Both the position numbers and the translations under genes were made by a program. Shown in pieces: positions 16,032 to 63,058 of a DNA stretch of 64,000 nucleotides. Each line of letters begins with the position of its first letter. The first letter of the stretch is position 1. The notes beneath the pieces are model-generated. The model saw nothing but the letters and a program-made list of their open reading frames with translations. It was not told where the DNA came from and ran no database searches. The stretch is from Henriciella marina DSM 19595 (lineage in GTDB: Bacteria; Pseudomonadota; Alphaproteobacteria; Caulobacterales; Hyphomonadaceae), in NCBI RefSeq assembly GCF_000376805.1, contig NZ_AQXT01000002.1:868001-932000 (forward strand), in the 5' to 3' direction.

Positions 16032-16571
16032 ATGATCTATTTTGTCAGACACGGCGAAGCTGAAGCTGGCTGGGGCACCGCACCGGACCCCGGCCTTTCC
16101 GCGCTTGGCCTCCGGCAGGCTGAGGCCGTTGCTCAGCAGCTAGGCCAGCAACCTGTAAACCAGATCCTCGTCAGCCCCATGCGCCGGTGCCAGGAGACCT
16201 CAAGGCCGTTTGCCACTGAGTCGGGCCTCAAGGTCGCAACCGAACCTGCCGTGAGCGAAATCCCGACGCCGGAAGGTCTTGATGACCGCGTCGTCTGGCT
16301 GCGCGGCTTCATGGCAGGCACCTGGGACGCTGCCCCAGCCGTGGTCGCCGACTGGCGGGACACGCTGATCGGCAAGCTGGCTTCAATTGAAGACCAAACG
16401 GTGGTGTTCAGCCACTTCATCGCCATCAACACGATCGTTGGTCACCTGACCGGCAGCGATCTGGTCACCAGCTTCACACCGGGCCATTGCTCGGTCACGA
16501 AACTGGAGCGTGAGAACGACGTTCTTCGCGTGGTCGAAACCGGCAGCGAGGCGGCAACCAAAGTGCTGTGA
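16032..16571 (+). CDS. Histidine phosphatase family protein (SixA/PGAM-like)
   Basis: This is a 179-residue member of the histidine phosphatase superfamily. The N-terminal catalytic RHGE motif (FVRHGEAE) supplies the phosphorylated histidine. SPMRRCQETS provides the conserved Arg, and FSHFIAIN supplies the second histidine. The size is close to SixA-type phosphohistidine phosphatases and small PGAM-like phosphatases; the substrate is not predictable. The ATG at 16032 puts the RHG motif at its usual position. It lies between coq4 and the NAD(P)HX dehydratase gene. Confidence 0.85.
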   Translation: MIYFVRHGEAEAGWGTAPDPGLSALGLRQAEAVAQQLGQQPVNQILVSPMRRCQETSRPFATESGLKVATEPAVSEIPTPEGLDDRVVWLRGFMAGTWDAAPAVVADWRDTLIGKLASIEDQTVVFSHFIAINTIVGHLTGSDLVTSFTPGHCSVTKLERENDVLRVVETGSEAATKVL

Positions 16572-16590: not shown

Positions 16591-16634
16591 ACACCGCCGA
16601 AACACCGCCCAGACACCGTGACGACACCGTCCCG
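16591..16634 (+). repeat. Phased array: four ACACCG repeats at exact 11-bp period
   Basis: ACACCG begins at 16591, 16602, 16613 and 16624, so four tandem 11-mers share the core ACACCG and vary in the remaining five bases. A further ACACC occurs at 16571. The array lies in the 109-bp spacer between the histidine phosphatase and the NAD(P)HX dehydratase, ending 46 nt before its ATG. The same pentamer core in the same relative orientation and spacing recurs upstream of ilvD (62384-62422). The 11-bp spacing places each copy on the same face of the helix. Confidence 0.7.
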
Positions 16635-16680
16635 ACGGCCAGTAAAGACCGAACTTTCCCACGGAAACTCCGCAAGCCCG

Positions 16681-17526
16681 ATGACCTCCTCAGCGCCCGA
16701 AATCAATCATCCTGATCACTGGCTCAATGACTGGCCCTGGCCGTCTGATGACAGTCACAAGCACAAGCGCGGCGCGCTGGGCGTTGTCACCGGACCGGCC
16801 GCCTCGACAGGCGCTGCAAGGCTGGCTGCCCGCGCCGGGCTTCGCATTGGTGCCGGCCTCGTCACGCTCTTCTCACCGCCATCGGCAACACTGGTCAACG
16901 CCGCCCATGAGACCTCCGTCATGGTCAAGGCCTTCAACTCGGGCGACGCCCTCTCAACGCTTGCAACAAGTGCCGCCTGCGCACTGATCGGGCCGGCCGC
17001 TGGGGTCACCGATGCAACGCGCGAGAACACGCTGACCATATTGGCAAGAGCAGGCTCTGCCGTTCTGGATGCAGACGCCCTGACCGTCTTCAAGGACGCG
17101 CCCGAGGCTCTCTTTGATGCGATCGAACATCCTACAGTCATGACCCCGCATGACGGGGAGTTTGGGCGCATCTTTCCCGGCCTTCTGGACGATTACTCAC
17201 GGCCCGAAGCCACCGCGATCGCTGCTGCCCGGTCCGGATCTATCGTGCTGCTTAAAGGCAATGAGACACTCATCGCCGCCCCCGATGGCCAGCTGATCGC
17301 CAATCGCCACGCCTCTCCATTTCTGGCAACGGCAGGCAGCGGAGATGTCCTGGCCGGCATGATTGGCGGCCTGATGGCGCAGGGGATGCCTGCCTTCAAA
17401 GCCGCCTGCGCTGCCGCATGGTGCCATGGCGAGGTCGCCCGGCGTCTCGGTCCTGGCCTCATTTCAGAAGACCTCCCAGATGCCCTGCCCGGCCTCCTCA
17501 AAGAGTTTTATGCAAGACGCGCTTGA
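16681..17526 (+). CDS. nnrD: ADP/ATP-dependent NAD(P)H-hydrate dehydratase, stand-alone domain
   Basis: This enzyme repairs hydrated NADH and NADPH using a nucleotide cofactor. The 281-residue protein matches the YjeF C-terminal, ribokinase-like domain: KRGALGVVTG near the start, MTPHDGEFGRIF, LLKGNETLIAAPDG and the ATP/Mg motif TAGSGDVLAGMIGGL. Many alphaproteobacteria carry a fused epimerase-dehydratase near glnB; here the N-terminal epimerase domain is absent and no separate epimerase gene is seen in the window. The ATG at 16681 has only a weak ribosome site, and an in-frame GTG exists at 16618, so the start is uncertain. The phased repeat array lies just upstream. Confidence 0.9.
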   Translation: MTSSAPEINHPDHWLNDWPWPSDDSHKHKRGALGVVTGPAASTGAARLAARAGLRIGAGLVTLFSPPSATLVNAAHETSVMVKAFNSGDALSTLATSAACALIGPAAGVTDATRENTLTILARAGSAVLDADALTVFKDAPEALFDAIEHPTVMTPHDGEFGRIFPGLLDDYSRPEATAIAAARSGSIVLLKGNETLIAAPDGQLIANRHASPFLATAGSGDVLAGMIGGLMAQGMPAFKAACAAAWCHGEVARRLGPGLISEDLPDALPGLLKEFYARRA

Positions 17527-60529: not shown

Positions 60530-62257
60530 TCAGAGATCTGCGTAGACGTGCCGCTCGCCCTCGAAGCCTTCATGCGTGACGGCGCCTTTATGCGCAGGGC
60601 CTACGAGCTTGGAGAACTTCGCAAGCGCGCCTGAGCCATAGCGGGTAATACGAGGCGCCCAGTCCTTGCGGCGCGTTTCAAGCTCGGCGTCGCTGACCTC
60701 CAGGTCGATCGTACCGGCTTCGGCGTCGATCGAGATCATGTCGCCATCCTTGATAAGCCCGATCGGGCCGCCTTCCTGGGCTTCCGGGCCGACATGGCCG
60801 ATACAGAACCCGCGCGTGGCCCCGGAGAACCGACCATCCGTGATGAGCGCCACCTTGTCGCCCATGCCCTGTCCGTAAATCGCGGCCGTGGTCGACAACA
60901 TCTCGCGCATGCCAGGGCCGCCTTTTGCCCCTTCATAACGGATAATCAGAACGTCGCCCTCGTTGTAATCCCTTGTTTCTACAGCTTTGAAGCAGGCTTC
61001 TTCGCCATCGAACACACGCGCTGGACCGCGGAACTTCAGGGAATGAAGCCCGGCCACCTTAACGATGGCACCATCAGGAGCGAGCGAGCCCCAGAGCCCC
61101 ACCACGCCGCCTGACTTGGTGATGGGCTTGCCGGCCGGGTAGATGACTTTCTGTTCGGGGTTCCAGGTGACCTCTTCAAGGTTTTCGGCCCAGGTCTTGC
61201 CGGTTACGGTCATGCAGTCGCCATGGATAAGCCCTTCTTCGTGAAGGGTTTTCATGAGCATCGGCACGCCGCCTGCTTCGCCGAAATCCTTGGCGACATA
61301 TTCGCCGCCGGGCTTGAGGGACGCGATATAGGGGGTCTTCTCGAAGATGCGGGCGACGTCTTTCAATTCAAAATCGACACCACACTCATTTGCCATGGCT
61401 GGCAGGTGCAGCGCGGCATTCGTCGAGCCGCCCGTCGCGGCGACAACAATGGCTGCATTTTCAAAGGCTTCGCGGGTACAGATGTCGCGCGGACGCAGAT
61501 TGCTCTCGATCAGGCGCATCACGGCTTCACCGGAGGCAACGGCATACTCATCGCGGTTCGCATAAGGCGCCGGCAGAGCCGAGGACAGTGGGAGCGCGAG
61601 ACCGATCGCTTCGGAGACGCAAGCCATTGTATTTGCAGTAAATTGACCGCCGCAGGCCCCGTCGCCCGGACAAGCGATTTTCTCCAGCGCGTGGAGCTTC
61701 TCCTCGGTCATGTCATTATTGCCGGCTGCATGGGCGCCAACAGCTTCGAAAACGTCGAGAACGGTGACGTCTTTTCCTTCAAAACGGCCCGGCAGGATGG
61801 AGCCGCCATAGAGGAAGACCGACGGTACGTTGAGGCGCAGCATCGCCATCATCATGCCCGGCAGCGACTTGTCACACCCTGCAACGCCGACGAGCGCATC
61901 ATAGCCGTGGCCGCGCATGGTGAGCTCGACGGAATCTGCAATGACTTCGCGCGAAACGAGCGATGAGCGCATGCCTTCATGGCCCATGGCGATGCCGTCT
62001 GTAACCGTGATGGTACAGAATTCACGCGGGGTGCCATCACCGGCCTTTACGCCTTCGGACACCGCATGGGCCTGACGCATCAGGGCGGTGTTACAGGGGG
62101 CGGCCTCATTCCAACAGGACGCGACGCCGACGAAGGGCTTCTTGATGTCCTTGGTCGACAGGCCCATCGCGTAATAATAGCTGCGATGCGGGGCGCGGGC
62201 CGGGCCTTCGGTGACGTGGCGCGACGGCAGGCGTGACTTGTCCCAGGTCTTGCTCAT
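60530..62257 (-). CDS. ilvD: Dihydroxy-acid dehydratase
   Basis: IlvD makes 2-oxo acids from dihydroxyacids in branched-chain amino acid synthesis. The 575 residues contain the Fe-S cluster cysteines in APCN (Cys55), AGCDKS (Cys128) and GDGACGG (Cys202), and the DGRFSGATRG motif. The ATG at 62257 follows AGGAG. A phased array of CACCG repeats lies about 125 bp upstream. Confidence 0.96.
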   Translation of the reverse strand: MSKTWDKSRLPSRHVTEGPARAPHRSYYYAMGLSTKDIKKPFVGVASCWNEAAPCNTALMRQAHAVSEGVKAGDGTPREFCTITVTDGIAMGHEGMRSSLVSREVIADSVELTMRGHGYDALVGVAGCDKSLPGMMMAMLRLNVPSVFLYGGSILPGRFEGKDVTVLDVFEAVGAHAAGNNDMTEEKLHALEKIACPGDGACGGQFTANTMACVSEAIGLALPLSSALPAPYANRDEYAVASGEAVMRLIESNLRPRDICTREAFENAAIVVAATGGSTNAALHLPAMANECGVDFELKDVARIFEKTPYIASLKPGGEYVAKDFGEAGGVPMLMKTLHEEGLIHGDCMTVTGKTWAENLEEVTWNPEQKVIYPAGKPITKSGGVVGLWGSLAPDGAIVKVAGLHSLKFRGPARVFDGEEACFKAVETRDYNEGDVLIIRYEGAKGGPGMREMLSTTAAIYGQGMGDKVALITDGRFSGATRGFCIGHVGPEAQEGGPIGLIKDGDMISIDAEAGTIDLEVSDAELETRRKDWAPRITRYGSGALAKFSKLVGPAHKGAVTHEGFEGERHVYADL

Positions 62258-62383
62258 TTCGCGGGCTCCTAAAGCTTGATCTTGGATGATCTGATAGAAG
62301 CCCGTCCCGGTTGAGGCTAGGGGTCGGCAGCGAATTTCCGCCGGAAAGTGTGCGAAAAATTCTGCCCTTTTGTCCTTAAATCA

Positions 62384-62422
62384 CGGTGCAGTGACGGTGT
62401 ACTAGCGGTGTTTTTGCCGGTG
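62384..62422 (-). repeat. Phased array: four CACCG repeats at 11, 11 and 12 bp, upstream of ilvD
   Basis: On the plus strand CGGTG begins at 62384, 62395, 62406 and 62418. On the minus strand, which is the ilvD coding direction, these are [AG]CACCG in each unit. The core and orientation relative to the gene match the array upstream of the NAD(P)HX dehydratase gene (16591-16634). The array sits 127 to 165 bp before the ilvD ATG. Confidence 0.65.
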
Positions 62423-62443: not shown

Positions 62444-62980
62444 TTATTCCAATTTCAGCCGCATAAGGAATTCGAGATCGAGGTGTTTTCCGACCGGGAA
62501 GTCAAACTCTCCCACTTTCTCAAAGCCATGTCGCTCATAAAGCCTGCGCGCATCTTCGTTTCCGGAAAATACACTCAGATAGAGTTCTGGCGCTTGAGAG
62601 ATCCTCGCCCACTCCACGGCTTCACCGATGAAATGGGAGCCGAGCCCCCTGCCCTGAAGCGGGGTGTCGACATAGACCCGCATCAGCTCCACTGCGCCGT
62701 CTTCGGCGTCGTCGGCCGGCAGCTCCAGCGGCGAGCAGACGAGATAGGCACCGAGCGCGCCGTCTGGCAGCGCGGCCACCCGGACCAGGTAGTCCGGGCT
62801 GTCGATCATATGAGCGTAGAACGTCTGTGCGTGAGCCTCTTCAAGATAGGCGTCGAGATCGGCCTTGGCATAAAGATGACCGAACTTCTCAAGAAAGGTC
62901 CGCTGGCCGAGTTCTTCGAGCGCAGCCGCGTCGCCGGGAACAGCAGCGCGGATAGTAACACCTGTGAGATCAGCTGACAT
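62444..62980 (-). CDS. GNAT family N-acetyltransferase
   Basis: This is a 178-residue acetyltransferase with the start at ATG 62980; the frame is open to 63013. The acetyl-CoA-binding loop VDTPLQGRGLGSHFIGEAVEW and the C-terminal NEDARRLYERHGFEKVGEF are typical. The substrate is unknown. Its 3' end lies about 20 bp from the CACCG array. Confidence 0.88.
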   Translation of the reverse strand: MSADLTGVTIRAAVPGDAAALEELGQRTFLEKFGHLYAKADLDAYLEEAHAQTFYAHMIDSPDYLVRVAALPDGALGAYLVCSPLELPADDAEDGAVELMRVYVDTPLQGRGLGSHFIGEAVEWARISQAPELYLSVFSGNEDARRLYERHGFEKVGEFDFPVGKHLDLEFLMRLKLE

Positions 62981-63058
62981 ATCAACGGCCTCTTTGTTAC
63001 GGGCTGTGCTCAAAAGATGCGGCGTCTGCCTGATGGACGGCTCATCCCGGCAGCGTGA

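Follow-up and report, generated by a model that had tools for sequence, protein, structure and literature searches.

Tandem 11-bp CACCG arrays recur along a Henriciella chromosome and are spelled differently in related genomes

About 31 arrays of similar build, among them the CACCG array upstream of ilvD, are distributed over the genome of Henriciella marina DSM 19595 (G000). These arrays repeat a short word every 11 bp, keep apart from one another along the chromosome, and occupy loci that are conserved in related genomes, where the words of a lineage differ jointly in their letters. Taken together, they look less like a gene switch than like a mark that organises the chromosome. The probability that they are spaced chromosome reference sites for a putative oligomerising DNA-binding protein, and not the operators of a regulon, is put at roughly one half.

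Arrays in the window and across the genome

The stretch analyzed, referred to as the window, comprises 64,000 nucleotides and contains two of the arrays (Table 1). The ilvD array has its four words at 62384-62388, 62395-62399, 62406-62410, and 62418-62422 of the minus strand. The earlier note had counted four CACCG copies on the coding strand of ilvD at a distance of 127-165 bp upstream; with the ilvD start at 62257, these values were confirmed. Its steps of 11, 11, and 12 bp belong to the opposite reading direction, as the steps are 12, 11, and 11 bp when read 5' to 3' on the ilvD strand. At the nnrD locus, partner arrays occurred in G017 and, in a different dialect, in G008. CACCG(N5-8)CACCG pairs occurred 8 times in the window against 0.67 expected (100 shuffles, maximum 4), and 6 of the 8 pairs were parts of the two arrays.

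Table 1. Arrays, companion motifs, and adjacent genes in the window
Feature	Position	Strand	Location or basis
11-bp tandem array, four CACCG words	62384..62422	-	intergenic, GNAT-like gene / ilvD
11-bp tandem array, four CACCG words	16592..16629	+	between histidine-phosphatase-like gene and nnrD
Companion motif ACTTTCCGGCGGAAATTCGC (TTTCCG...GGAAA), downstream of ilvD array	62330..62349	-	sequence
Companion-like motif TTTCCCACGGAAAC, downstream of nnrD array	16655..16668	+	sequence and motif class
ilvD, dihydroxy-acid dehydratase	60530..62257	-	Pfam PF00920, PF24877
GNAT-family acetyltransferase-like gene, 3' end toward array	62444..63013	-	PF00583; ORF bounds, start not fixed
nnrD, NAD(P)H-hydrate dehydratase	16681..17526	+	Pfam PF01256; start approximate
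Histidine phosphatase-like gene, end 20 bp before nnrD array	16032..16571	+	Pfam PF00300

Across the 3.28-Mb genome, a first pattern of three CACCG copies with steps of 11 and then 11-12 bp gave 24 matches at 17 places and its reversed control 0, which upholds the claim that such arrays exceed chance. A second pattern with 11-bp steps and one mismatch gave 48 overlapping matches, 27 of them forward and 21 reverse, against a control of 0; merging these by hand left 30 arrays. The 31st array, at 1304257, scored 26.2 against a best control of 14.9 in a weight-matrix scan that covered about 0.8 Mb of larger gaps and the window and whose training set included both window arrays. In total, G000 carries 31 arrays of 3-6 words with an 11-bp period in both orientations (reversed control 0), about 1 per 100 kb. 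As the earlier note had supposed, the ilvD and nnrD arrays belong to one family, and this family is genome-wide. Excluded from the 31 were C2:1190174, one of the 17 places, which has one 12-bp step and lies in an alcohol-dehydrogenase-like ORF, the two-word matrix hits 1309626 (18.2) and 1313817 (19.4), both above the best control, and the matrix hit 1003219 with a score of 14.1. G017 carries 30 arrays, and the number of words per array ranges from 3 to 8 across G000, G017, G018, and G019, with 8 reached in G019.

Occurrence in related genomes

Three exact CACCG words were matched 13-26 times in each of 7 of the 29 genus genomes, and the three-word array was absent from the other 22 in this exact-word search. 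The seven genomes, grouped without a tree, are referred to as the CACCG clade. Over the first 250 residues their IlvD proteins are 98-100% identical, and the next genome follows with 96%. Among 16 genomes of the same order outside the genus, 15 were without a match and G036 matched at a single locus. A scan of named genomes, for 80 of 116 stretches, gave 31 rows from Henriciella (H. marina, H. barbarensis, H. algicola, and two uncultured), while the remaining rows among those 80 were scattered records from many genera.

An alignment of ilvD leaders covered 27 genomes, of which 25 belong to the genus and 2 to the order. In it, the array position was shared by all seven clade genomes, some of the words being changed in G013 and G016. 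GGACTG, GTACTG, and GGACGG-type words in the same 11-bp register were present in the leaders of G018, G019, and G021, and additional word variants in those of G008, G009, and G011, while no array was visible by eye in the other leaders aligned. Within the nearest group (7 of 7), the orthologous ilvD leaders share the array.

Three RNACYG words at 11 bp gave 37 matches in G019 (control 1), 27 in G000 (3), 19 in G013 (2), 12 in G008 (0), 4 in G018 (0), and 3 in G011 (1), while nine further genus members had 0 or 1 matches (controls 0-4). With RKACYG words and one mismatch, G019 had 82 matches (control 7) and G018 27 (control 3), and no excess appeared in G021 (4 vs 4), G043 (0 vs 6), G041 (2 vs 10), and G001 (1 vs 1). 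Word and spacer tables differ from genome to genome. ACACCG words with CCCAG/TCCAG spacers characterize G000, and G017 combines ACACCG and GCACC(G/A) with CCAGT/TCACT. G019 uses AGACTG/GTACTG/ATACCG, of the form (A/G)(G/T)AC(C/T)G, with GAATC/GAATT, and G018 uses GGACTG with TTTTC/TTTCC. Spacers and words were coupled in the G019 arrays (L061, L108-L127, L375-L379), where spacers ending in C mostly preceded words starting with A and those ending in T preceded words starting with G (junction counts ATCA 39, ATTG 19, and ATCG 6).

Conserved loci with different letters

Orthology was assigned by grouping 5-kb loci by common genes with a protein identity of at least 60%. Array-bearing partners of the 31 G000 loci were found for 25 in G017, 12 in G019 (in a different dialect), 5 in G018, and 7 in G008, where the hand addition of the ilvD loci of G018, G019, and G008 and the PUFA-synthase loci of G018 and G008 raised counts by at most 2, the G018 and G019 counts rest on a fetched part of their hits, one G018 locus is present twice, and at least one group merges two distinct G000 loci. 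The G019 one-mismatch hits C27:257176, C33:305969, and C29:26799 were judged chance and excluded from this set, and G019 C23:357376 was used for spacing only.

Two loci were followed through G000, G017, G019, and G008. In 4 of 4 genomes, an array lies between the convergent trcR and methyltransferase genes on the trcR strand, and likewise in 4 of 4 one lies in the same tandem gap and on the same strand between the Na/alanine symporter gene (AGCS) and xerD. These arrays are written in three dialects with their orientation conserved. The conserved array at trcR (L355:2604-3293, PF06242), a cell-cycle regulator gene, is directly downstream of it.

A 2491-codon PUFA-synthase-like ORF, matched in 15 of the 29 genus genomes and with FabA-like domains in the 1231 residues scanned, carries an array in its linker in all seven clade genomes and also in G008, G018, and G019. 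Of the other matching genomes, G043, G021, and G009 showed no clear array and G011 a fragment of two words, with G012 not assessable. Across the clade, the words occupy all three codon phases. Pair comparisons of the seven gave 18 differences in 420 core positions (4.3%, biased downward since the clade is partly defined by its CACCG words) and 76 in 420 spacer positions (18%), while in the upstream flank 430 of 1260 third codon positions (34%) and 184 of 2520 first and second positions (7.3%) differed. Because all three phases are used, yet core letters differ far less than third positions, the linker array seems to be conserved at the level of DNA rather than protein.

Spacing along the chromosome

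The chromosomal distribution of the arrays is non-random, being over-dispersed in G000, G017, and the long contigs of G013, G003, and G016. In a test that was devised after the positions were known and that assumes a circular chromosome, 0 of 31 gaps in G000 were shorter than 41 kb against a random mean of 9.8 (0 of 50000 simulations). The smallest gap was 41.3 kb in G000 (random mean 3.4 kb; 1 of 100000 placements), 43.0 kb in G017 (3.6 kb; 0 of 100000), 47.0 kb in G013 C11 (4.7 kb; 0 of 100000), 46.5 kb in G003 C5 (6.2 kb; 3 of 100000), and 47.4 kb in G016 C38 (5.9 kb; 0 of 100000). Over the tallied contigs, gaps below 41 kb numbered 0 of 23 in G013, 0 of 23 in G003, and 1 of 24 in G016. The clade genomes are not independent evidence for spacing because most of their loci are common by descent. 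In G016, C60:128156 and C60:131138 lie 3 kb apart as the sole such pair in the tallied contigs of these three genomes, and the second is spelled more like the G000 arrays; the smallest gap of C60 is accordingly 3.0 kb (random mean 16.2 kb; 86259 of 100000).

The result for G000 depends in part on the weaker candidates. With 1190174 added, one gap fell below 41 kb (0 of 50000 simulations with as few), and with 1190174, 1309626, and 1313817 added there were 3 against 11.6 expected (6 of 50000), while the smallest gap alone was then unremarkable (11501 of 50000). The exact 41-kb minimum varies with the definition of an array because 1190174 is 13.5 kb from an array and the other two are 4-5 kb from neighbouring hits.

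Even spacing is firm in the CACCG clade only. In G019 C23, the smallest gap was 46.7 kb (random mean 14.7 kb; 2580 of 100000), and close pairs occurred at 20.9 and 27.6 kb in G018, 23 and 37 kb in G019, and 16.6 kb in G004; the G018 and G019 hits judged chance would yield closer pairs still. G018, G008, G004, and G020, whose arrays are few, fragmented, or incompletely catalogued, were left out of the simulation.

Genomic surroundings and companion motif

Automated calls placed 13 of the 31 G000 arrays between genes and 18 in ORFs, with about 10% of the 0.8 Mb scanned being intergenic; some of the in-ORF calls are wrong, such as that of the ilvD array, which resulted from a spurious antisense ORF. 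Both flanking genes run opposite to 7 of the 13 intergenic arrays, while 3 arrays lie along their genes, 2 between divergent, and 1 between convergent genes. The earlier claim that the core is on the strand that encodes the downstream gene is accordingly correct for both window arrays and does not extend to the genome, given the 7 of 13. Many arrays are located 50-210 bp from a gene start, an operator-like distance. Pfam assignments for 40 neighbours, a subset of all, included IlvD, NnrD, OsmC, glyoxalase, ZIP, Na/Ala symporter, XerD, polyprenyl synthase, BioY, MltA, TrcR, and others, and no common functional theme was found among these 40.

Often an array is accompanied, 10-80 bp downstream, by a TTTCCGAC-like motif, which in some cases has an inverted GGAAA partner. 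In a sample of 27 non-coding arrays from G000 and G017, in which orthologous arrays count twice, the next 80 bp downstream contained TTTCCG 6.0 times per kb against 0.44 in the intergenic background of G000, and TCCGAC 4.2 times against 0.19. Upstream of the arrays the letters are A-rich. Some adjacent spacers are reverse-complementary (CAGTG...CACTG) as judged by eye, and an RNA hairpin was considered and dropped because many spacers are not complementary and the orientation to transcription is mixed.

With parB taken as the origin position, no restriction to terminus or origin was found, as 16 and 15 arrays fell in the origin and terminus halves of G000 and 20 and 10 in those of G017. Arrays were co-oriented with the replication fork in 10 of 31 cases in G000 (p 0.07) and 10 of 30 in G017 (p 0.10) and directed against it in 21 of 31 and 20 of 30, which is only a trend.

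Several gene families accompany the arrays. A small-protein family without Pfam match (L349:2598-2993, L356:2236-2607, L153:2141-2674, L154:2097-2486), with the pattern W-P-I/V-hydrophobic...E/L-L/V-Y/A-R-L, repeatedly carries or adjoins an array. In a second paralog family (L149:2287-2946, L157:2065-2712, L347:2287-2916), the array lies in the 3' coding part; the two of its three members that were scanned had no Pfam match, and apparent small GIY-YIG ORFs, recognised by eye, lie near two of the genes. Four G019 arrays (L122, L123, L125, L127) have near-identical flanks. A response-regulator-like gene (L161:459-1151), whose product presumably resembles ChvI, lies some 1.4 kb away from an array, a distance at which autoregulation cannot be claimed.

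Discussion

The arrays occur within genes, between convergent genes, and in both orientations, and they are kept apart, which makes them more like matS or SlmA sites than operators. From the two window arrays, the earlier note had drawn a regulon that would join NAD(P)HX repair with branched-chain amino acid synthesis; this is mostly not supported, since neighbour functions and orientation are mixed and the arrays are over-dispersed. Also against it are the arrays that lie within the 2491-codon ORF or in a convergent gap, as neither site offers a promoter to act on. Mutual avoidance at the 41-kb scale is not predicted by a regulon and counts against it. With one array family upheld and the regulon not, the interpretation given in the note is partly supported.

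As reference sites, the arrays would be bound by a putative sequence-specific protein with one protomer per 11-bp word. With a period of 11 bp, close to a full turn of the helix, the words lie on one side of the DNA, an arrangement on which ParR (11-bp repeats of R1; PMC9426499) and BldC (9-bp repeats; PMC5859096) line up, and protomers could align head to tail along this face and thereby oligomerise. The approximately 31 occupied arrays might serve as loop anchors, as membrane or division tethers, or as segregation sites, and selection may act on their spacing. The joint letter difference at conserved loci suggests that the specificity of the binder shifted between lineages and that the arrays then followed, with biased copying between arrays as the alternative. 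A more far-reaching version is a chromosome-wide centromere-like system, in which a putative oligomeriser acts at about 30 arrays tens of kb apart and protein and arrays were re-lettered together repeatedly within one genus; it is a tentative proposal, and the odds are somewhat against it.

PhoB-type sites have an 11-bp step. In an extended form of the regulon proposed in the earlier note, a global regulator, be it a response regulator of the OmpR/PhoB type or a protein similar to BldC, might read the 11-bp repeats and regulate about 30 units including ilvD and nnrD. Passages of PMC5859096 describe such proteins as binding tandem direct repeats, the arrays at ilvD, nnrD, glyoxalase, OsmC, and other genes lie about 50-210 bp from the gene start, and the position of the ilvD leader array is kept across lineages with differing words. 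This explanation is nevertheless rather unlikely, given the convergent and intra-ORF arrays, their mixed orientation, the mixed functions of their neighbours, and the over-dispersion.

Less probable still is a dispersed repeat family, a present or former small mobile or self-spreading repeat that was homogenised in each genome by copying and so gave rise to dialects. The genome-wide extent of the dialects, the nearly identical flanks of the four G019 arrays, and the two Pfam-less small-protein families would fit such an origin, but the loci are conserved across species despite differing letters, flanks are otherwise unrelated in the loci inspected, no terminal repeats were noticed there, and the arrays are over-dispersed. 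A recognition signal for DNA uptake or packaging, similar to DUS/USS and spread through biased recombination, would share lineage dialects and regular spacing with uptake sequences but is very improbable, as about 30 copies per genome, or about 1 per 100 kb, are far too sparse.

Such arrays were not described in the titles and abstract openings returned by literature searches, which were mostly open-access and the best matches of longer lists. If the reading as reference sites is true, the alphaproteobacteria would gain an additional chromosome-organising site system, and the genus would offer a natural series, with species whose roughly 30 sites differ in specificity while keeping their places. 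The co-evolution of one protein with all of its sites would become directly testable, and the spacing would provide a handle on what determines the size of bacterial chromosome domains.

Comparison with known systems

The alphaproteobacterial LexA SOS box, GTTC-N7-GTTC with two half-sites at recA and lexA, is similar in its 11-bp step and dissimilar in its letters. DUS/USS likewise form species dialects, but they occur as hundreds to thousands of single copies, whereas about 30 tandem arrays are present here. The TAACTGA repeats of marine Beggiatoaceae resemble the arrays as small sets of short direct repeats with many sets per genome and functionally unrelated downstream genes, and they are contiguous heptamers located mostly immediately before start codons, according to excerpts of PMC4679880. 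The arrays differ from them in their spacing rule and dialects, neither of which was met for TAACTGA in those excerpts.

BldC and direct-repeat response regulators share the tandem-repeat arrangement. According to passages of PMC5859096, BldC binds head to tail to 9-bp units at promoters with a variable number of direct repeats, whereas the units here are 11 bp and often without a promoter. The ParR-parC centromere of type II partition plasmids also consists of tandem direct repeats, with units of 10-20 bp, a range that includes the 11-bp units here. ParR of R1 requires at least two 11-bp repeats, and the letters of the repeats vary by family and determine specificity, as given in parts of PMC9426499. 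On plasmids, parC lies upstream of parM, whereas here there are about 31 chromosomal sites, and parM and parR were absent among the 40 Pfam-scanned neighbours, a subset of all array neighbours.

The MatP/matS and SlmA systems resemble the arrays in having tens of specific chromosomal sites, some of them intragenic, that are thought to act through their position rather than by gene control, as stated in sections of PMC3116907. In E. coli, matS is a 13-bp motif with 23 copies within Ter, while the SlmA sites number about 50 and are absent from Ter. The arrays described here differ from both in being 11-bp tandem direct repeats that are distributed chromosome-wide, are over-dispersed, and vary in their letters between species.
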